Below are positions 4,791 through 33,944 of a DNA stretch of 64,000 nt, piece after piece. Position 1 is the first letter of the stretch. Each line of letters opens with the position of its first letter. The notes under the pieces were generated by a model, which saw only the letters and a program-made list of their open reading frames with translations, made no database searches and had not been told where the DNA came from. The translations under genes were made by a program, and so were the position numbers. The DNA is from Spirochaetia bacterium (lineage in GTDB: Bacteria > Spirochaetota > Leptospiria > Turneriellales > JAOUOS01), in assembly GCA_029880285.1 (NCBI GenBank), contig JAOUOS010000010.1, forward strand, positions 1 through 64,000, in the 5' to 3' direction.

Positions 4791-5624
4791 TTATTTTTTT
4801 AACACAGCGTCAAGCTTATCTATTTTTTCAAGATCATAATAAAATGGTATAAGCTCTTTGGGAGTTTCATATTCATCATAAAAGGCGTTTAAGAAAAATA
4901 AGGCGTAAGAAGGCAGTGTTTGACCAGCATCTTTTCTTTCTTTATTGTTTAAGATTTCTTTTACCGCTTCGGGTCTTATTTCTTCTTTGCCCGCCATAAG
5001 AAGAGTTCCCGTAACAATGCGTATCATATTGTGTAAAAACCCCGAACCGCTGTAGTAAAAATCAACAAAAGGACCGTGTTCAATAATAGAAATTTTATCT
5101 ATTCTTCTAATTGTTTTCTCTTTATTTTTAAAGTATGCTCCCTTGGTAAAAGCCGCAAAATCTTTTTCGCCTAATAAATAATTTGAGGTTTCTCTCATTA
5201 AATTGATATTTAATTTTTTACGAATCCAAAATGATTTTTTTTCATAAAAAGCCATTCTATAAGGGGTGTGTAAAATTCTGTAAATATAATCTCTGCCTTT
5301 GCATGAAAACCGCGCGTGAAAATCATTGGATACCGGCTTGCCATACACTAAAGAAACATCTTTTGGCAAAATAGAATTTACCGCATATATAAAACGTCTA
5401 AGATCATGAACCATTGAATCTTTGTTCTCAATACGAAAATGTACCACCTGACCTAACGCGTGAACTCCTGTATCGGTTCTACCGGCGACATGAAGCGTTA
5501 CTTTTTGACGAAGAATAATTTCAAATGCTTTTTCAAGTTCTTCTTGAACTGAACGAAAATCTTTTTGTCTTTGAAATCCGAAAAAATCAGAACCATCATA
5601 CTGAATCGTAAAAGCAAACTTCAT
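4791..5624 (-). CDS. truA: tRNA pseudouridine38-40 synthase
   Basis: Makes pseudouridine at positions 38-40 of the tRNA anticodon stem-loop. The catalytic Asp is in GRTDTGVHA (Asp51), followed by the conserved LGQVVHF. DFHARFSCKGRDYIYRI and the C-terminal GSGFLHNMIRIVTGTL match TruA signatures in order. The 277-residue length is slightly above the usual 245-270. It lies between the BrkB-type gene (40 bases upstream) and alr (11 bases downstream), all on the minus strand. Confidence 0.95.
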   Translation of the reverse strand: MKFAFTIQYDGSDFFGFQRQKDFRSVQEELEKAFEIILRQKVTLHVAGRTDTGVHALGQVVHFRIENKDSMVHDLRRFIYAVNSILPKDVSLVYGKPVSNDFHARFSCKGRDYIYRILHTPYRMAFYEKKSFWIRKKLNINLMRETSNYLLGEKDFAAFTKGAYFKNKEKTIRRIDKISIIEHGPFVDFYYSGSGFLHNMIRIVTGTLLMAGKEEIRPEAVKEILNNKERKDAGQTLPSYALFFLNAFYDEYETPKELIPFYYDLEKIDKLDAVLKK

Positions 5625-5664: not shown

Positions 5665-8013
5665 TTATTTTAATAGATCATCAAAAGTAATATTTTTAAA
5701 TATATCTGCTTTGCTTTTATTGGCTTTATTAAAAAGTTGTTTTACTTTTTTTGTAAAATTATCCTGTTCTGTGTTTACTGGTACAATATAATCAGAATAA
5801 TCAAGATTATCAATGATATTTTTTATTTTAATATTTTTTGGCGAAATAACAGGAATAAAATATTCATCTTCAATTTTTTGAATTATATTTAATTTGGTAA
5901 AAACAATTAATATTTGAGAAAGCTGATTAAAATTATTATCGCAGTATTTTAACAACCGGCTTTGTTTAGTTTTGCCTTCCTTTGATTCAAAATCAATATA
6001 AATTTTTCTTAACACGCTAAAAACAGACCACAAACCTGTTTTTTCATTTTCAATATTAATATTTTTTCTGCTTAATCTTACCAAATAAGGATACTGAACA
6101 AAAAAAGCAATCTCGGCGCCTAACAGCATTATTACAATTGAAACATAAACAAATAAAAGGCCCAAAGGTATTGCAGCCATTGTGCCGTATACTGCATAAG
6201 TTACTTTTGAAAAATATGAAATATATATTTTATAAAACAGAAGAAATAAAACCCAAAGAACAGAACCAGCCGCAGCCCCTAAAGCTGAAGATTTATTTTT
6301 AACCTCAGTAAAGGGAATTAGTTTATATACAAAAAAGAAAATTATCCAAATAGATACAAAAGGGATAAATATAGACGATAACGCAGAAATAAAATATCTA
6401 ATTAGCGGGGTTTTTTGTATATGTGAAAAATTATAAAATGTTTTTTCATCAGCAGAAAATATATTTTCTTCTGCGCCTAAAACATAAATTTTTTTTTCGG
6501 CAGTAATATATTCAATATCATTTAAGTTTATATTTTCTTTTAATTTTAGCGCCTGCCATATTTTACCACCTGTTTCTGTATGCCAAATCATACCCTCACT
6601 GCCGGCAATTAACCCTCTCTTTTTATCTAAAAAATAGATTTTATTTAAATTATAATGCTTTTGGCTTAAATGCTCTTTATGCCAGCTTTGGCCCATATCA
6701 TCACTTGTTAAAAGAGTTCCAAAATCGCCGCAAATAAATATTTTATTTTCATTTACGAAAATACTTTTTAAGCTTTCTTTTGAATTTAAAAGCTTTAATT
6801 CATTTAATACCTGCCAAGTTTCGCCTTTATCTTTACTTATTAAAATAGTAAAAGAATCACCCGCGATTATAAAAGAAGACTCATTTATTTGTTTAATATC
6901 ATTTAAATTTACCTTTAAATCTTCAATGTAAGACGGCTGCCATACATTGCCGCCGTCTATAGTTTTTAGTATCAAACCGCCGCCGCCAAGTATTATACCG
7001 GTTTTATCGGTAAACATTTTAATTTTGGTAAACAGCGGCGTTAACATAAATACATCTTTTTTTAAGTATTTTTGAATTTTCCAGTGAAGACCATTGTCAT
7101 TAGAGTGTAAAATCTCACCTTTATCGGTTATTAAAAAAATATCATTCTTAATCTGAGCCATATCTTTTAATCCCGATGTTTTGAAAGAATTTTTTGTAGA
7201 GGTTTTTGTTTTAAATGAAGAGTGACCGTTCATGCCTAAACCAGAAACTAAACTATTATCAGATGCAAAAATTACAGAATTTTTTTGATTTATAAAATCT
7301 ATTTTATCAATGATGTTAGTTTCTTCAAATTTAAATTTAGTTTTTTCAAGGTATGTGCTCTTTTCGCCTAAAATTACAGGTCTGCTGTTTACAACCCGCG
7401 TAACATTTAAATTTGCCGATGTATAAGATGATACAAAAGACTCTGCCGATGAAATTCCGGCAGCAATTACAGCAGGGCCCAATAACGATATCACTAAAAA
7501 ACCCGATATTTTATGAATAAACGGCCTTTCTTTTTGAACACGCCATATTTTATTTACCGCGTTTTCAATATTTCTTAAAACACTGGTTGCTGAAAATAAA
7601 ATAACCAGGATGCCAATACCTCCAATAGTAGCTGCGTTTTGAAGCATTTCATTTATAATTTCAATATAGGGCTCTATATCAATGGGAATATTCTCTTTTC
7701 TTAGGAATTCTTTAGCGTACATAAAATACATATCTTTTTGAATAAAATTCGAGCCTATCATAAGCGCCACAATTAAAGCGGGAATAAAACTAATAATTAA
7801 TGAATAGCTTATTGAAGCGGCGCGAAGCAATGCTTCATCGTAAATAAATTTTTGAATAACTACAATAATTCTTTTTATGCTATTTTTAATTTTATCCGCG
7901 GCGCTTTCTTCTTCGGCATATAATAGCTCTGTTAATTTTTTTATTTGAAAAACAATTCCTATTTTATTTTTTTTTTCTTCTTTAGGCAAGTTGTTTTTAA
8001 AATCTTTATTCAT
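5665..8013 (-). CDS. BrkB/YihY membrane protein with inserted propeller
   Basis: A 782-residue fusion. Residues about 50-195 and 535-645 are the two halves of a BrkB/YihY inner-membrane protein (once mislabelled RNase BN), with membrane segments near 68-88, 130-148, 170-190, 540-565, 578-598 and 608-635. The family signature around 566-640 is intact (PFTEVKNKSSALGAA; LLGAEIAFF). Between the halves lie about 340 residues with Asp-box repeats S/TxDxGxxW at 304-311, 351-358, 393-400, 437-444 and a degenerate copy at 479-486, spaced 42-47 residues as in BNR/YCF48-type beta-propellers. With a cytoplasmic N-terminus the insert would face the periplasm. A cytoplasmic winged-helix-like tail (about 685-730) follows. 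BrkB function is poorly known; the propeller suggests binding of a periplasmic partner. Confidence 0.88.
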   Translation of the reverse strand: MNKDFKNNLPKEEKKNKIGIVFQIKKLTELLYAEEESAADKIKNSIKRIIVVIQKFIYDEALLRAASISYSLIISFIPALIVALMIGSNFIQKDMYFMYAKEFLRKENIPIDIEPYIEIINEMLQNAATIGGIGILVILFSATSVLRNIENAVNKIWRVQKERPFIHKISGFLVISLLGPAVIAAGISSAESFVSSYTSANLNVTRVVNSRPVILGEKSTYLEKTKFKFEETNIIDKIDFINQKNSVIFASDNSLVSGLGMNGHSSFKTKTSTKNSFKTSGLKDMAQIKNDIFLITDKGEILHSNDNGLHWKIQKYLKKDVFMLTPLFTKIKMFTDKTGIILGGGGLILKTIDGGNVWQPSYIEDLKVNLNDIKQINESSFIIAGDSFTILISKDKGETWQVLNELKLLNSKESLKSIFVNENKIFICGDFGTLLTSDDMGQSWHKEHLSQKHYNLNKIYFLDKKRGLIAGSEGMIWHTETGGKIWQALKLKENINLNDIEYITAEKKIYVLGAEENIFSADEKTFYNFSHIQKTPLIRYFISALSSIFIPFVSIWIIFFFVYKLIPFTEVKNKSSALGAAAGSVLWVLFLLFYKIYISYFSKVTYAVYGTMAAIPLGLLFVYVSIVIMLLGAEIAFFVQYPYLVRLSRKNINIENEKTGLWSVFSVLRKIYIDFESKEGKTKQSRLLKYCDNNFNQLSQILIVFTKLNIIQKIEDEYFIPVISPKNIKIKNIIDNLDYSDYIVPVNTEQDNFTKKVKQLFNKANKSKADIFKNITFDDLLK

Positions 8014-8048: not shown

Positions 8049-9695
8049 TTATTCACTGGTAAGAATACCGCGTATTTTTCCGCTTATTTCAACCTGATTA
8101 TTTTCTGTATCTACGACTATTTCTGTGGCATAAATTTTACTGCCGCCGTTAATAATATACGGATTACCTTTTAGGATTATTTTTTTTTCGTCATCTTTCA
8201 TGTCGGCCCATTCACCGCCAAGTATTACCGGCTTATTATCATCTTCTTTTTTAATATCAATCATATTAGATTTTAAATCGCCGTATGATTCTAAAATTAC
8301 ATTGCCTCTGGCATGTATTATTTTCTTTTCTACATTTCGTTCTATAACATTCGCGGTTACTGTCGCCGTTTTTTTATTATCATCTGAGTATGTTTCAATA
8401 TACGGCAGTATCTGCTCGCCTTTTATATTTTCTGCCGAATTCATTTTTAGTTTATTCTGTTCTTTATAAAAATAGGCTATCTGTGAATATATAAATGTGT
8501 TATTTTGTTTTATTTTGCTTTGAACGTTTTTTTCGGCTATTACTTCATCCGGGCCTTCGCCAAGAGCGGTTATTTTTAAACATTCTGTGTAAAAATCTTC
8601 ATTTTCTATGGTAATTAAATTATTCAAATCACCTGTCATAATGATTTTTTTATTTTCAGGTTTATCATCTGAAAATTCATATTCAGCCTTATTGCTTTTG
8701 ATTATCGTGGTAATCTTCCCTTCGCCTTCTTTTTTATCTTTACTATTATTTTTTTTGTCTGCATCATGATTTTCTGAACTTACATATAATATCTCAACAT
8801 TATTTTCAAGAAACGCTTTTTTATCATTTATAAAATATCTTATGATATCAGCCGCGAAAACATTTTCTTTTTGATATATTTTGGGGTCTTCTTCGGCAAT
8901 TACTTTTTTTTCATCTTCATACATAACTGCTTTTTGGCTGAATAAAAGGAACTCTTCATCTTTAATAGAAACGTTGCCCCATCCTCTTATTATTTTAGGT
9001 CCAAATAACCTTTCTATCTCTTTCGCGGTTAAAGTAACGTCTTTACCGTTTGAGGCACCTTTAAATATTACCAAAGGTTTATCTTGAACAAGAAGCCTGT
9101 CTTCAAACTTTCTAAATTCTCCCAGCCCTGCCTTTAAGAAAAATTTTTCTTTTTTATCATCTACTTCAAGACCTTTAGATGTTAGTGAGAGTTCCTGTTT
9201 ATCGCCAATTACTTCTATTAAAGGAGCATTTAAATTTGTGGTGCCATATTTTATTTTGGCGTTACCAGCAATAGAAAGCACGAGTTCTTTTCTTTTTACG
9301 TACGGATGTACTTTTACTTCTCGAATAAATTGGCTGCCTGAATAATGTACCGGATGTTTTGGTTTTTTTTCATACTCTTTCGCGGCTTTTTTGTCATTAT
9401 CAAACAGCACGCTTTCTTTTTTTTCTACTTTTTTGGGCGCAGTATTTACAACAGAGCCCACCCCAAAACCTTCTTTGGTTTTAAGCTCTTTTTCTTCAAT
9501 TTCTTTAACAGGTACATGGGGCTTTTTTTTAATTATGATTTGTTCTTCTTTTTCTTCTTTGGGTTTTACATCGTCTTTAAAGCCGGGTTTAATCCATTTT
9601 GTTGAAGTACAAAATTGAAAAGAAAAAATTAGCATTAAGCAGCTTATTTTTGCAAACCAAAACATCTTTTTTATACAATTTAAATGATTTTTCAT
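8049..9695 (-). CDS. OstA/LptA-like LPS-transport protein
   Basis: A 548-residue exported, Lys/Glu-rich protein with a signal segment (about 13-28) ending at Cys29 in a weak lipobox (FQFC). The mature part has repeated OstA-type strands: a first block near 125-215 (AGNAKIKYG; KGLEVDDKKEK), a second near 235-300 (GWGNVSIKDEEFLLFSQKA; AENDP-like YQKENVF) and a third near 445-545 (ARGNVILES; NNQVEISGKIRGIL). In the family these jellyroll strands form the periplasmic bridge that carries lipopolysaccharide or related glycolipid to the outer membrane. It is longer than LptA (about 180 residues), resembling the large OstA-like proteins of spirochaetes. Partner lpt genes are not in the window. Confidence 0.75.
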   Translation of the reverse strand: MKNHLNCIKKMFWFAKISCLMLIFSFQFCTSTKWIKPGFKDDVKPKEEKEEQIIIKKKPHVPVKEIEEKELKTKEGFGVGSVVNTAPKKVEKKESVLFDNDKKAAKEYEKKPKHPVHYSGSQFIREVKVHPYVKRKELVLSIAGNAKIKYGTTNLNAPLIEVIGDKQELSLTSKGLEVDDKKEKFFLKAGLGEFRKFEDRLLVQDKPLVIFKGASNGKDVTLTAKEIERLFGPKIIRGWGNVSIKDEEFLLFSQKAVMYEDEKKVIAEEDPKIYQKENVFAADIIRYFINDKKAFLENNVEILYVSSENHDADKKNNSKDKKEGEGKITTIIKSNKAEYEFSDDKPENKKIIMTGDLNNLITIENEDFYTECLKITALGEGPDEVIAEKNVQSKIKQNNTFIYSQIAYFYKEQNKLKMNSAENIKGEQILPYIETYSDDNKKTATVTANVIERNVEKKIIHARGNVILESYGDLKSNMIDIKKEDDNKPVILGGEWADMKDDEKKIILKGNPYIINGGSKIYATEIVVDTENNQVEISGKIRGILTSE

Positions 9696-17372: not shown

Positions 17373-18095
17373 ATGTCAAAAATAAAAAAAATATATATTT
17401 TTGCTTTTATTTTTTGCGCAATGCTCTGCTACTACGATCCAAATCCTCCTGAAGACAGCGAACTTTATGATGAAAGGCCAATATTAGTTTTAAATCTTAC
17501 AGGCTGCTCCGCTTCGTCAAAAGTTTTTATCCGCTACTGGGATTCTAAAGGCGCCTTTTTGTATCCTTCATCTTATCCTATTTTTACGAATACCGAGGGC
17601 GGTTTATTAAAAAGTCTTTCTCTAACTCAGTATACTCAAACCGTTTCTTTTTTATTGTATGTCGATCAAAATCAAAATGATGAAATAGATACTTTTGATT
17701 TTGGTATTTACCAAACCGTAACATTAAATACGCTGGAAAATGTAACCCGTGAAGATATTTCATGTATACCTGATACTTTAATAGAGGTATTACCTTTTGA
17801 TAATTTAACACCTGAAAGCGGTCAAAAAATTTGTGTTTATACACCGGCCGATAAACCAATATGGAACATTTATAATAGAAATAATATACCTGAATATCCT
17901 GAGCTTGCTGATAAATCGGCTTTTTTAACTGACTGGTTTCCCGCTTTTGTTCTGAATAGTAATGGAACAATTAAAAACAATTTTCTTATCTCTGGCAGTT
18001 ATCATGAAACATGCGTATATGATTACAACTTAAATAATTTATATGAAAGTTCAGAAACTATAACCACAAAGGAAAACGACTTTAATGTTCCGTAA
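17373..18095 (+). CDS. Exported protein with EF-hand-like loop, possible lipoprotein
   Basis: A 240-residue protein with a signal segment (about 5-18) followed by Cys19 in AMLC, a possible lipobox, so probably membrane-anchored on the outside. The mature part is strand-rich. The stretch DQNQNDEIDTFDFG (about 109-122) matches the DxNxDxxxD pattern of an EF-hand or dockerin calcium loop. The last 11 bases overlap the next gene, an outer-membrane barrel, so the two are almost certainly made together. A surface accessory or ligand-capture lipoprotein for that barrel is a reasonable inference; function is not proven. Confidence 0.65.
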   Translation: MSKIKKIYIFAFIFCAMLCYYDPNPPEDSELYDERPILVLNLTGCSASSKVFIRYWDSKGAFLYPSSYPIFTNTEGGLLKSLSLTQYTQTVSFLLYVDQNQNDEIDTFDFGIYQTVTLNTLENVTREDISCIPDTLIEVLPFDNLTPESGQKICVYTPADKPIWNIYNRNNIPEYPELADKSAFLTDWFPAFVLNSNGTIKNNFLISGSYHETCVYDYNLNNLYESSETITTKENDFNVP

Positions 18096-20526
18096 AAATA
18101 TTTTGTTTCTATTTTTTATTTTATCATTTTTTAAATTAACCGCGCAGGAACAGGCAGGTACAGAAGAAAATTTGGTTACTAATGAAAGCAATATGCAAAT
18201 TGAAAACATAGAATATGTAAACTGGTCCCTTATTAATCCTATTTTTTCACCTGAAACTTTTGAAATGCTGCCAAACACGAGCCACTTTGGCTCTTTTCTT
18301 GAGTATGTATATCCCGGTGCCATTCTTTCAAACCCAGACACAGCGGGATTTTCGCTTCTTGAACCTGTAACAATAAACACGCACGGTGAATCGGTAAAAT
18401 GGCAAAAATATTATATTAACAGCATGAATATTTCTAACCCCGGCATGCCGGGCAAACCTCTTATTTACATGCCGGAACATTTGTTTAATTCATTTCAGGT
18501 GAATTCTCAACTGCGATCGTATAGAAAAGATCATGGATACAATTGGCAGGTAAACACTGCCCAGGAAAAATCAGGAAAATTATATCTTTCGAACCCGGGA
18601 CACATAGGCGGACCTACATGGATGCCTTCTGAATTTGATCGTGAACCCGCGCAAGAATGGGGGGCGGCTGAAAAAACCAGACGTTTTGGACCTTCACTTG
18701 AAACTGCTTTTGATTATTCTTTTGAAGGCATAAATGAAAAAAAAGCGCGAATTTTTTATGAAAGCATTTATCACAACAGAACCTTTTTAAATCTTGATGA
18801 TTATGAAAACGGTTATCGTAATACATTATATTTTTCACACCAGCTTTCAGAAAATAAAGATATGGCGCTATATTATCAAAATATACAGCGTGATCACTAC
18901 GGCATAGAGACCGGCCATAACGACGAAAACTCATTAAAAGAAAATTCTAACGCTCTTTTAATTCAATTTTATAAACCAAAAGACTCAAACCAAAATAATT
19001 ATTATCTATTTTCTGCCGGTTTTATACAAAATGATTTAACGCAAAATTCAAAAGATTCTATGGTAATCGATCTTTTTGAAAAAGCTCTTTTTTACAAAAA
19101 TCTTACGCCAGAAACAAAAAATTCATGGTTCAGTGAGTTCCACTATAACCTGCTTGACTTTAATAAACTTTTATCATTTGCCCTCTCTTCTGAAAACAGC
19201 TTAAGAATAGAGGGCTCACATGTAAAACAAACCTTTAATAATAATATATTGGCGCGAACTTATTACGGCCAGCCACTTGACATAACAATTTTTGAAACAA
19301 ATAACCCTTATCATCAAGAGATAATAAAATTATATTCTTCAATTATTTTAGAGCAAAAATTTAAAAAAGCGGATATTCAACTTACAGCTGGTTTGCAGTC
19401 AGAAACCGCTTTCTCTAATTTCAATTTTTCTATTTTTCGTATAGAACCAAACGCTTCTCTATCACTTAATTATTTTTTAACAAAAAATCTACATCTTTTC
19501 TCTGGTTTACAGCATGACGCCATACCTCTTACGCTTGAAGAAGTTTCTTTCTTAAACAAAAAAAGTCTTTCAGGCGCTCGATATAATTGGAACGATAACG
19601 GCAATGATGTTCCCGAAAAAAATGAGGCTGGCAATGTACTTTCTAAAACCGGCGGTTTATACCATGTGAAAAATAATAACCTTTCATATCCTTCGCGTGA
19701 AGAAATATATACAGGAATATCATATGATTTTTTAAAATACTGGCGCTATTTTTTTTCAGTTCACGCCAAGCGTTTTACCGGTTTATATTTTGTAGATTAC
19801 GACTCAAGCGTAAACAGCGGCTACAGTAAAATAACAAGATCAGATTCTGAAATTGGGTATCTTTACAACCGTGACATAAACTCTTTTGGCAATGAAATAT
19901 TTCAATTAACAAATTCTTCTGAAAACGGATATTACGCGGCAGCAGAAACTCAAATACTCAAGAAATATGATTCCAATTCTCCGTGGTTTATTCAAATAAG
20001 CATTGGCGGTTATTATGCTCAGGCTAAAACAATTATGGGTAACGGTTATGATTATAACGACATGGGACAGTTTGATGAATCAAGCGCCAATAAAAACAAA
20101 CAGTTAAACACTCTCGCCAGAGTAGATTTCGACAGAGGTTACACCGGCCATCTTCTGTTTGGAGCAAAATTCTTTAAGCAATTTCTTTGGTCAAATATTT
20201 TGAGATATAGAGACGGCCAGCCCTTTGGAGAACTGCTTATTGTTGAAGGTTTAACCGAAGGACCGGTATTAATTCAAAATAAAAACAGATCGAATCCTCC
20301 GGTGGGTATGCCCCGTTTTACTTATGCTCTTTCATGGGATGTAAGATTAGCATATGATCATGTTTTTAAAGATAAAGAATTTACCGTATCCCTTGATATT
20401 TATAATCTTCTTGATTCACGCGCTGAACTTTATGAATATACACTTTCTTCAGAAAAATACAGAGACGCCTTAGAAACAGGCGGCAGAAGAAGCTATCGTT
20501 TAAATATGTCTTATAAATGGAAATAA
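18085..20526 (+). CDS. TonB-dependent-receptor-like outer membrane barrel
   Basis: An 813-residue protein with a signal peptide ending near TAQ (residue 20). Most of the chain is alternating aromatic/polar strands typical of a 22-strand outer-membrane barrel. The C-terminal part (TVSLDIYNLLDSRAELYEYTL; SYRLNMSYKWK) closely follows the final strands of TonB receptors. A reduced plug-like region precedes the barrel (about 60-150), but no clear TonB box is seen. Substrate unknown. The start codon lies inside the preceding lipoprotein gene (11-base overlap). The facing gene 4 bases downstream encodes a cysteine-rich exported protein, which makes a metal a candidate ligand, by inference only. Confidence 0.7.
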   Translation: MFRKNILFLFFILSFFKLTAQEQAGTEENLVTNESNMQIENIEYVNWSLINPIFSPETFEMLPNTSHFGSFLEYVYPGAILSNPDTAGFSLLEPVTINTHGESVKWQKYYINSMNISNPGMPGKPLIYMPEHLFNSFQVNSQLRSYRKDHGYNWQVNTAQEKSGKLYLSNPGHIGGPTWMPSEFDREPAQEWGAAEKTRRFGPSLETAFDYSFEGINEKKARIFYESIYHNRTFLNLDDYENGYRNTLYFSHQLSENKDMALYYQNIQRDHYGIETGHNDENSLKENSNALLIQFYKPKDSNQNNYYLFSAGFIQNDLTQNSKDSMVIDLFEKALFYKNLTPETKNSWFSEFHYNLLDFNKLLSFALSSENSLRIEGSHVKQTFNNNILARTYYGQPLDITIFETNNPYHQEIIKLYSSIILEQKFKKADIQLTAGLQSETAFSNFNFSIFRIEPNASLSLNYFLTKNLHLFSGLQHDAIPLTLEEVSFLNKKSLSGARYNWNDNGNDVPEKNEAGNVLSKTGGLYHVKNNNLSYPSREEIYTGISYDFLKYWRYFFSVHAKRFTGLYFVDYDSSVNSGYSKITRSDSEIGYLYNRDINSFGNEIFQLTNSSENGYYAAAETQILKKYDSNSPWFIQISIGGYYAQAKTIMGNGYDYNDMGQFDESSANKNKQLNTLARVDFDRGYTGHLLFGAKFFKQFLWSNILRYRDGQPFGELLIVEGLTEGPVLIQNKNRSNPPVGMPRFTYALSWDVRLAYDHVFKDKEFTVSLDIYNLLDSRAELYEYTLSSEKYRDALETGGRRSYRLNMSYKWK

Positions 20527-31869: not shown

Positions 31870-31889
31870 TTTTCAACATTCTGTTAAGG
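31870..31889 (-). repeat. Right terminal inverted repeat of the IS
   Basis: Read on the minus strand it is CCTTAACAGAATGTTGAAAA. Its CCT and TAA are used as the last codon and stop codon of the adjoining 686-residue gene. Confidence 0.8.
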
Positions 31890-33944
31890 CTGTGGATTTA
31901 CATCCATTATAATAAATGTTATAGGAACCGTAGAAACCTGCTGTGAAGCAAAATTTAAATAGTTTTGCGAATAAGTGGCCGGTTCAAAAACATATTCTGA
32001 TACATTTCTAGCATTATCCATTACCATAAGTTTGGGGTAAAGGGTAACGGGCGAGGTATCTCCAAATCCTGAAAGCACAATGTCACATATACAGGTACCG
32101 TTGCCAAGATTTAACGCGAAACAGCTACCATAGACATTTTGGCTACTTTCAGAATCTACAATGTCAATAAAAACTCCCATAATACCCGAATCGGCATCAG
32201 ACGCTGTGGATGTTACCGTAATAACATCACCTAACTGATAATTTGTACCGTTTGTTCCCGTTGGTGTACCTTCAACAGCAAGAGCGGTTAATAATGGTAA
32301 CACATTATCTATTAATGAATTGGTAATAACAACTGAAGGCGCAAATGTAGTACCTGTTGCTGTAGAACCATTATAAATATATTCTGCGCCATTATGTATG
32401 AAAGTATGCTCTATATTATCCGCGTCATATACAAAAACATCAGTTACCGTCCAGGTTCCATCCATATTATATTTTGACTTAGGGAACTGACCTGAAAAAA
32501 CACCCACGCCAGCATGCGTTAAATTTATATATTCAGTTTCATTGGCAGGGCCTGTTAAATTAACGCCAATATATTTCGCGCATGAAAAATCAGCGACAAC
32601 AGTAATGATAACATTCTCGCTCGTATTTAAATCTAAAGCTGCATTACTTATTGAAATAGATTGAAGCGAAGCAGAATTACAGGTACCGCTCGTAGGCGGC
32701 TCAAATTTACATGAAGTATTACATCCAATGGTAATCGTTTCACACTCTTCAGGAGGTGAAATATTTCCATCACCGCAAGTGTAACTATTAGCCCCAACTG
32801 TTAAAGAAGCCAATGGTATTGTTGAAGCATAATACTGGTTTATTTGATCACCTGCAGTATGCACAATAGTATAATTTGTTGTTGAAATTCGTGAGTCAGA
32901 TAAAAAAGAAATAGAATTACCCTGCATATCTAAGATAGAAAAGTAAACATAATAATTGCCGCCGTACGCTGGAGGCATTGTAAAAGTATAGCTTGATTCT
33001 GAAGGTAATATAATTCCCGATGAATTCATGCTAATATAAATAGATTCAATTTGACTAGTTGAAGAGGCTGTACTTGCGTCAAAATCACTTACCAGACCCA
33101 CTACAAAACCATATATGTTTGTTTTATTGGGTACGTTCCAGGTTATAGTTATTGGCATACCCTGCGTTAATGTACCGCTTAGGGTTAAGCTTTCTAATAC
33201 AGGGTAAAGTACAGTATTCACAGAATTTTTCATGTCTGAAAAAGCTATAGTTACGGCAGTATTTGTTGAATTTTCAAACGCGGTTTTAAGTTCTTCCGCT
33301 GTTTGTGCTGTTTCAATTAATGCTATTAAATTTGTATCATTTTTTATTTCATCAATAAATATCGCTGCTTTGTCGGTTAAAAATTCTGACATCTCATATA
33401 TTTTATAAAGCGAAGTATTCTCTTCAAGAGGCCCGCCAAAAATTGATTCTAAAGCTCTTACGGCCGCGTTTGACACAGGATCGCAAATTAAATTGGTCAT
33501 ATTATCTTTTCCCAGACATTTCATTTCTGAAAGATAATTGCTAATAGGTGCCGCGCATGAAAAAACAATCAGCGCTTCTTTATTTTCAGGAATATTTTCA
33601 ATGGCAAATTTTCCGCTTTCATCGGTAATACCTTTATAAACAGGCGAACTGCCCGCCCCTAAAATAAATACATTAAAAGGGCTGCTAGAGCATCCAGCTG
33701 GTGACGAAACCATTGCGGCGCTTAAATTAGCCAAACTTCCCGCTAATGAGCCTTCTATGGGTTCTACAATTTGAGCGCTGGCAGTTCCCGAAATAGACGC
33801 TGACAAACTGGTTTCATCATCAATATTTGTTTCTTCTTTATCTACTTTGGTACAACTGCAATAACCAATATATTGAGAAAATAAAAAGATTATACTAAGA
33901 TTAAAAGTAAATTTTACCAGAACTTTGAACTTGCCTGATTTCAT
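31884..33944 (-). CDS. Large cell-surface lipoprotein, 3' end cut by IS
   Basis: A 686-residue exported protein, probably a lipoprotein (hydrophobic segment about 12-27, then Cys29 and Cys31 in GYCSC). Near 60-130 there is a carboxypeptidase-regulatory-like fold (VYKGITDESGKFAIENIP). Ig/fibronectin-like strands follow (TITWNVPNKTNIYGFVVG). A CGDGNISPPEECE motif near residue 400 is the kind found as Cys-rich repeats in secreted proteins of myxobacteria and spirochaetes. The last codons read P-Q, then CCT-TAA inside the right terminal repeat of the IS1182 element, so the original C-terminus may be missing. Function unknown; adhesin or surface scaffold are possibilities. Confidence 0.7.
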   Translation of the reverse strand: MKSGKFKVLVKFTFNLSIIFLFSQYIGYCSCTKVDKEETNIDDETSLSASISGTASAQIVEPIEGSLAGSLANLSAAMVSSPAGCSSSPFNVFILGAGSSPVYKGITDESGKFAIENIPENKEALIVFSCAAPISNYLSEMKCLGKDNMTNLICDPVSNAAVRALESIFGGPLEENTSLYKIYEMSEFLTDKAAIFIDEIKNDTNLIALIETAQTAEELKTAFENSTNTAVTIAFSDMKNSVNTVLYPVLESLTLSGTLTQGMPITITWNVPNKTNIYGFVVGLVSDFDASTASSTSQIESIYISMNSSGIILPSESSYTFTMPPAYGGNYYVYFSILDMQGNSISFLSDSRISTTNYTIVHTAGDQINQYYASTIPLASLTVGANSYTCGDGNISPPEECETITIGCNTSCKFEPPTSGTCNSASLQSISISNAALDLNTSENVIITVVADFSCAKYIGVNLTGPANETEYINLTHAGVGVFSGQFPKSKYNMDGTWTVTDVFVYDADNIEHTFIHNGAEYIYNGSTATGTTFAPSVVITNSLIDNVLPLLTALAVEGTPTGTNGTNYQLGDVITVTSTASDADSGIMGVFIDIVDSESSQNVYGSCFALNLGNGTCICDIVLSGFGDTSPVTLYPKLMVMDNARNVSEYVFEPATYSQNYLNFASQQVSTVPITFIIMDVNPQP

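Follow-up and report, generated by a model that had tools for sequence, protein, structure and literature searches.

A Ycf48-like seven-bladed propeller lies between the membrane halves of a BrkB/YihY family protein in Spirochaetota

BrkB/YihY proteins occur across bacteria and archaea, and there is no agreement on what they do at the molecular level. Sialidases and GH74 enzymes are among the proteins with Asp-box propellers. The label of RNase BN given to yihY has been withdrawn, this enzyme being the product of elaC (PMC2330054), and this literature fits the suggestion of the original prediction, which was made from the sequence alone, that the protein described here is not a nuclease. The E. 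coli protein YhjD, also of BrkB type and located in the inner membrane, binds LPS, co-purifies with LptB and has an LPS-related phenotype (PMC3219608). Ycf48/HCF136 (PF14870) is a seven-bladed Asp-box propeller whose site of action is the non-cytoplasmic side of a membrane protein, and its binding to D1 takes place through a conserved Arg patch (PMC10403576). The Asp-boxes themselves are structural and alone give no indication of sugar binding (PMC2716378). Therefore, of the earlier assertion that such propellers bind sugars or proteins, the part concerning sugars receives no argument from the boxes alone.

The window, which is the whole stretch of 64,000 nucleotides that was analysed, contains on the (−) strand at positions 5665–8013 a single unbroken ORF of 782 aa, with its ATG at 8013 and its stop codon at 5665. 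The encoded protein consists of a BrkB half, a Ycf48-like Asp-box propeller, a second BrkB half and an Rrf2-like winged-helix tail, and this layout, already proposed in the original prediction, was confirmed by Pfam, AlphaFold and the profile of the tail. Virul_fac_BrkB (PF03631) matched with an E-value of 6.2e-37 (128.1 bits, cut-off 33.7) in two stretches, residues 59–188 and the C-terminal half, so that both halves of the model were covered, and the NCBIfam model TIGR00765 was also exceeded (100.6 against a cut-off of 73.15). PSII_BNR/YCF48 (PF14870) matched between both stretches with an E-value of 1.2e-19 (71.1 bits, cut-off 27). Both Pfam families were found in all 19 homologues of the first alignment. 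The first BrkB half (residues 50–195; positions 7429–7866, (−) strand) was delimited by Pfam, hydropathy and the AlphaFold helices 60–87, 127–156 and 165–195, and comprises TM1–TM3; the second (residues 537–645; positions 6079–6405, (−) strand) comprises TM4–TM6, according to Pfam, AlphaFold and hydropathy. The insert between them has about 342–344 aa in the window protein.

The propeller (residues 202–533; positions 6415–7410, (−) strand) was recognised by Pfam, AlphaFold, Foldseek and a profile search against the PDB. As anticipated, prediction of the structure of the full chain, performed with AlphaFold2 and 15 aligned homologues, gave a propeller. It has seven blades, mostly with pLDDT values of 84–92, and is joined by few residues to TM3, ending at 195, and to TM4, starting at 537. 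The blades are thus seven and not five, the number of boxes previously reported. Concerning these boxes, four comply strictly with [ST]xDxGxxW, namely SNDNGLHW (residues 304–311; 7081–7104), TIDGGNVW (351–358; 6940–6963), SKDKGETW (393–400; 6814–6837) and SDDMGQSW (437–444; 6682–6705), all found by motif search on the (−) strand and spaced by 47, 42 and 44 residues. The fifth, TETGGKIW (479–486; 6556–6579, (−) strand), is degenerate as it lacks the Asp, and the count of five holds only if it is included. Shuffling the insert 20,000 times did not once yield four strict boxes. The twelve best fold matches in the PDB obtained with Foldseek were all Ycf48 (E-values from 3e-13 to 2e-11; TM-scores by target of 0.69–0.74), and Ycf48 also ranked first in the search with the sequence profile (7.8e-28). 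A viral fold search matched generic propellers.

The window protein thus resembles BrkB/YihY proteins (PF03631; TIGR00765, NF003256) in its six-helix core, in which both halves match, and in having the same kind of C-terminal tail as other spirochaete BrkB proteins. It differs from them in the extra 320–390 residues, approximately, that form a propeller between TM3 and TM4, and the short TM3–TM4 loop that is usual in this family, albeit not required by its model, is absent from the window protein and 46 relatives. Compared with Ycf48/HCF136, it shares the type of propeller, for which Ycf48 is the top match in fold and sequence, and the predicted location on the non-cytoplasmic face of the membrane. 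However, it is here a part of a polytopic membrane protein of spirochaetes and the Arg patch binding D1 is not kept, since in the consensus most positions aligned to it hold acidic or polar residues. The score of the window protein against NF010237 was 71.4 bits, the equivalog cut-off being 326. A propeller of Ycf48 type is seen here in a membrane-protein role outside photosynthesis.

The propeller form was found in about 80 of the 296 Spirochaetota genomes searched, as counted by hand from the tables with partial copies included, so the domain order sought elsewhere does exist in other genomes. Among the near genomes, 38 of 41 gave a match, most of them full length and in the same order. The named relatives with the propeller form, which were scanned with patterns suited to close relatives, were all Spirochaetota (Turneriella, Leptospiraceae and Spirochaetia MAGs), and in the plasmid collection BrkB and YCF48-related proteins were seen only as separate proteins. 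The same order and insertion point, with unbroken frames, were repeated in dozens of independent assemblies, including the 2-contig 4.4 Mb assembly G007. Hence, it is close to certain that the architecture is real. Each domain is known, and we did not find the fusion of BrkB and propeller described in the literature, most subscription journals and preprints lying outside the search; the insertion of one domain into the other and its depth in spirochaetes are apparently new.

At the insertion point, 317–388 aa were counted in 47 sampled homologues, versus 7–18 aa in 23 propeller-less spirochaete BrkB proteins, which bears out the earlier remark that BrkB proteins normally have short loops here. 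A tree of the membrane columns alone separated the 47 propeller forms from the 23 propeller-less ones by one branch with an SH-aLRT of 100; this was a quick tree, with the propeller columns left out and some long branches, and as it is unrooted gain and loss are not distinguished by it. The tree of the propeller alone gave the same four clades. Both the single branch and the agreement between trees indicate one acquisition or one loss followed by joint inheritance. Consequently, these sequence comparisons strongly support a single insertion or loss of the propeller, after which propeller and core were inherited as a unit in Spirochaetota.

Six hydrophobic helices were predicted in the BrkB core by AlphaFold and hydropathy, although the model is weaker in the membrane, with pLDDT values of about 50–65 in the first half and 50–82 in the second, and the search of the PDB with the sequence profile returned no BrkB structure. 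The loop charges over 47 homologues obey the positive-inside rule with both termini inside and the insert outside. This prediction backs the N-in topology that had been suggested, and the propeller, placed in the TM3–TM4 loop, is probably periplasmic. The average share of the commonest residue was 0.55 and 0.58 in the membrane halves and 0.35 in both the propeller and the tail. The core is, as a consequence, the constrained part of the protein. In the window genome the propeller form is the sole BrkB detected, and neither a second BrkB nor a second Ycf48-like sequence appeared at the thresholds used. BrkB matches were also obtained in the Gram-positive and archaeal control genomes; BrkB function is accordingly not tied to the outer membrane, and this distribution of sequences points to a general function in the cytoplasmic membrane.

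By analogy with Ycf48, which keeps D1 in place on the lumenal side of the reaction centre in photosystem II, we tentatively propose a general BrkB core, probably handling lipids, that carries the propeller as a periplasmic docking platform. The conserved membrane core would perform what BrkB proteins do everywhere, that is, a general task of the cytoplasmic membrane, most likely the handling of lipids or glycolipids in the bilayer. The faster-diverging propeller would dock or guard, so that a partner protein or a client might be held over the core. Several results count against this proposal. The Arg patch of Ycf48 is not kept, as mentioned above. In addition, no neighbour conserved across the family was found in an all-against-all comparison of neighbours at 55 loci. 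Finally, no clear binding face was identified among the conserved propeller positions of the 47 forms. The near-invariant positions are structural Gly and Trp residues plus D239, the sole acidic exception, which is acidic in 94% of these forms and belongs to a motif resembling [KR]-[IV]-D-[FY]-[DE]-N-Q that links the region between the first two blades (KIDFINQK in the window protein, residues 237–244; positions 7282–7305, (−) strand; defined by conservation over the 47 forms), and no propeller column has Lys or Arg in at least 75% of the 47 forms. The protein may also be a simple transporter to which an accessory domain has been added. For a family whose role is unsettled, a large folded domain kept in a periplasmic loop through several families offers a handle: under the docking proposal the propeller should bind a partner or client and could be purified as a soluble bait.

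A role in the transport of LPS or of lipid A precursors together with the Lpt bridge, as in the case of YhjD, with the propeller docking a lipoprotein of the LptA/LptC type, was also considered. On the same strand and 35 nt upstream of the gene there is a 548 aa lipoprotein-like protein of this type (8049–9695, (−) strand; Pfam OstA_2/LptD_N, AlphaFold, Foldseek), whose model, made from two sequences and with large low-confidence stretches, best matches LptC, LptD and LptA. The same pair is adjacent in L071, where OstA_2/LptD_N is also found. Furthermore, the window genome has LpxC, as most of its class, and three LptF/G matches. However, outside the window the LptA-like neighbour was recognised in just one genome, of the same family, so it is a possible operon partner in this lineage alone. 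YhjD has no propeller, and the window protein obtained 26.5 bits with the YhjD model TIGR00766, well under its 213.65. Moreover, in five other families LpxC was detected in none of the 35 genomes that bear the propeller, and LptF/G above the cut-off in none of the 17 of these LpxC-less genomes that were tested, although genomes within one family are related and these absences amount to few independent events. The propeller form is thus still present in genomes without LpxC and LptF/G, and it does not depend on LPS. LPS as a substrate common to the whole family was ruled out by this distribution, and an Lpt-linked role appears unlikely on the whole, although for the window lineage alone an LPS role could still be true. 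With regard to the 548-aa neighbour itself, its LptA/LptC/LptD-type beta structure is far longer than E. coli LptA and its N-terminal 115 residues, approximately, are of low confidence in the model.

Omp85 was present in all 17 of the tested LpxC-less, propeller-bearing genomes. Families f23, f31, f12, f35 and f41 (loci L075–L094 are examples of them and of two further families) have Omp85 and lack LpxC, as well as LptF/G above the cut-off. Unlike them, five propeller-less genomes of families f49 and f47, in which LpxC was undetected, kept LptF/G. Judging from gene content, the first five families are apparently LPS-less diderms devoid of the Lpt inner-membrane complex. It is conceivable, albeit improbable, that in such LPS-less, LptF/G-less and Omp85-bearing spirochaetes the propeller-BrkB protein is a core part of an undescribed route by which envelope lipids or lipoproteins are moved or sorted, the propeller being a periplasmic gate or dock above a lipid-handling core.

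The presence of a periplasmic domain and a cytoplasmic winged helix on one chain could also suggest a transmembrane sensor, in which a periplasmic ligand would be sensed by the propeller, with the Rrf2-like winged helix regulating genes from the membrane. The tail (residues 660–782; positions 5668–6036, (−) strand) is present in the AlphaFold model and its sequence profile matches structures of the Rrf2 family (4cic, 4.2e-6; 3lwf, 0.0067; 2y75, 0.011), but the Pfam Rrf2 model was reached by only two of the 19 members. In addition, the tail is net neutral in charge and as variable as the propeller, the conserved part being the six-TM core. Furthermore, of the nine f6 propeller forms sampled five are devoid of it, and it occurs in propeller-less spirochaete BrkB proteins, so that tail and propeller are not coupled. 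We infer that this winged helix, in the cytoplasm, is an addition to BrkB of older date and does not serve as the output of a sensor built on the propeller. The sensor is consequently quite doubtful, and the membrane sensor or envelope-assembly factor of the original prediction is a conjecture. The propeller forms at L103–L106 and L108 end soon after TM6, without the winged-helix tail.

The weak profile matches of the propeller to sialidases and GH74 in the PDB would agree with a domain of glycan-binding or glycosidase type whose target is peptidoglycan or a surface sugar. Nevertheless, Ycf48 is a far better match in both sequence and fold, the Asp-boxes have a structural role, and in the propeller no cluster of catalytic-looking residues was found to be conserved over the 47 forms, all of which makes this activity very unlikely. 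Lastly, an assembly error or the accidental joining of adjacent genes, to which the broken or split copies of some MAGs such as G025 might point, is refuted by the conservation of order, insertion point and frames described above and can be practically discarded.

With respect to its surroundings, neither a tRNA nor an Rfam family reaching the gathering threshold was found in the window (positions 1–64,000). Two of its long ORFs, encoding 813 aa (18085–20526, (+) strand) and 686 aa (31884–33944, (−) strand), had no Pfam match at 1e-5. Downstream of the gene, after a gap of 40 nt, a TruA-type tRNA pseudouridine synthase was identified with Pfam (4791–5624, (−) strand). The contexts of the propeller gene are lineage-specific. 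The TruA-type gene appears in f1 and f4, and its order is kept in L061, L062 and L071; in the other class, a TonB-like protein and EF-G on the opposite strand are found. After the gene in L064, L066, L068 and L074 there is a strongly conserved, secreted-looking protein of 222–228 aa (LRLDYYYDQSGMFTKFSDWIPKRLHQW...), which gave no Pfam match when that of L066 was scanned. In f6 the context is a single-TM periplasmic protein, for which no match was obtained in Pfam (L099 scanned) or, with the family profile, in the PDB. This conserved protein of 230–300 aa has one N-terminal TM helix and is located just upstream in L099, L100, L101, L104, L105 and L108; in L099, L104 and L108 there is an overlap of 4 nt between its gene and that of the BrkB-propeller protein.
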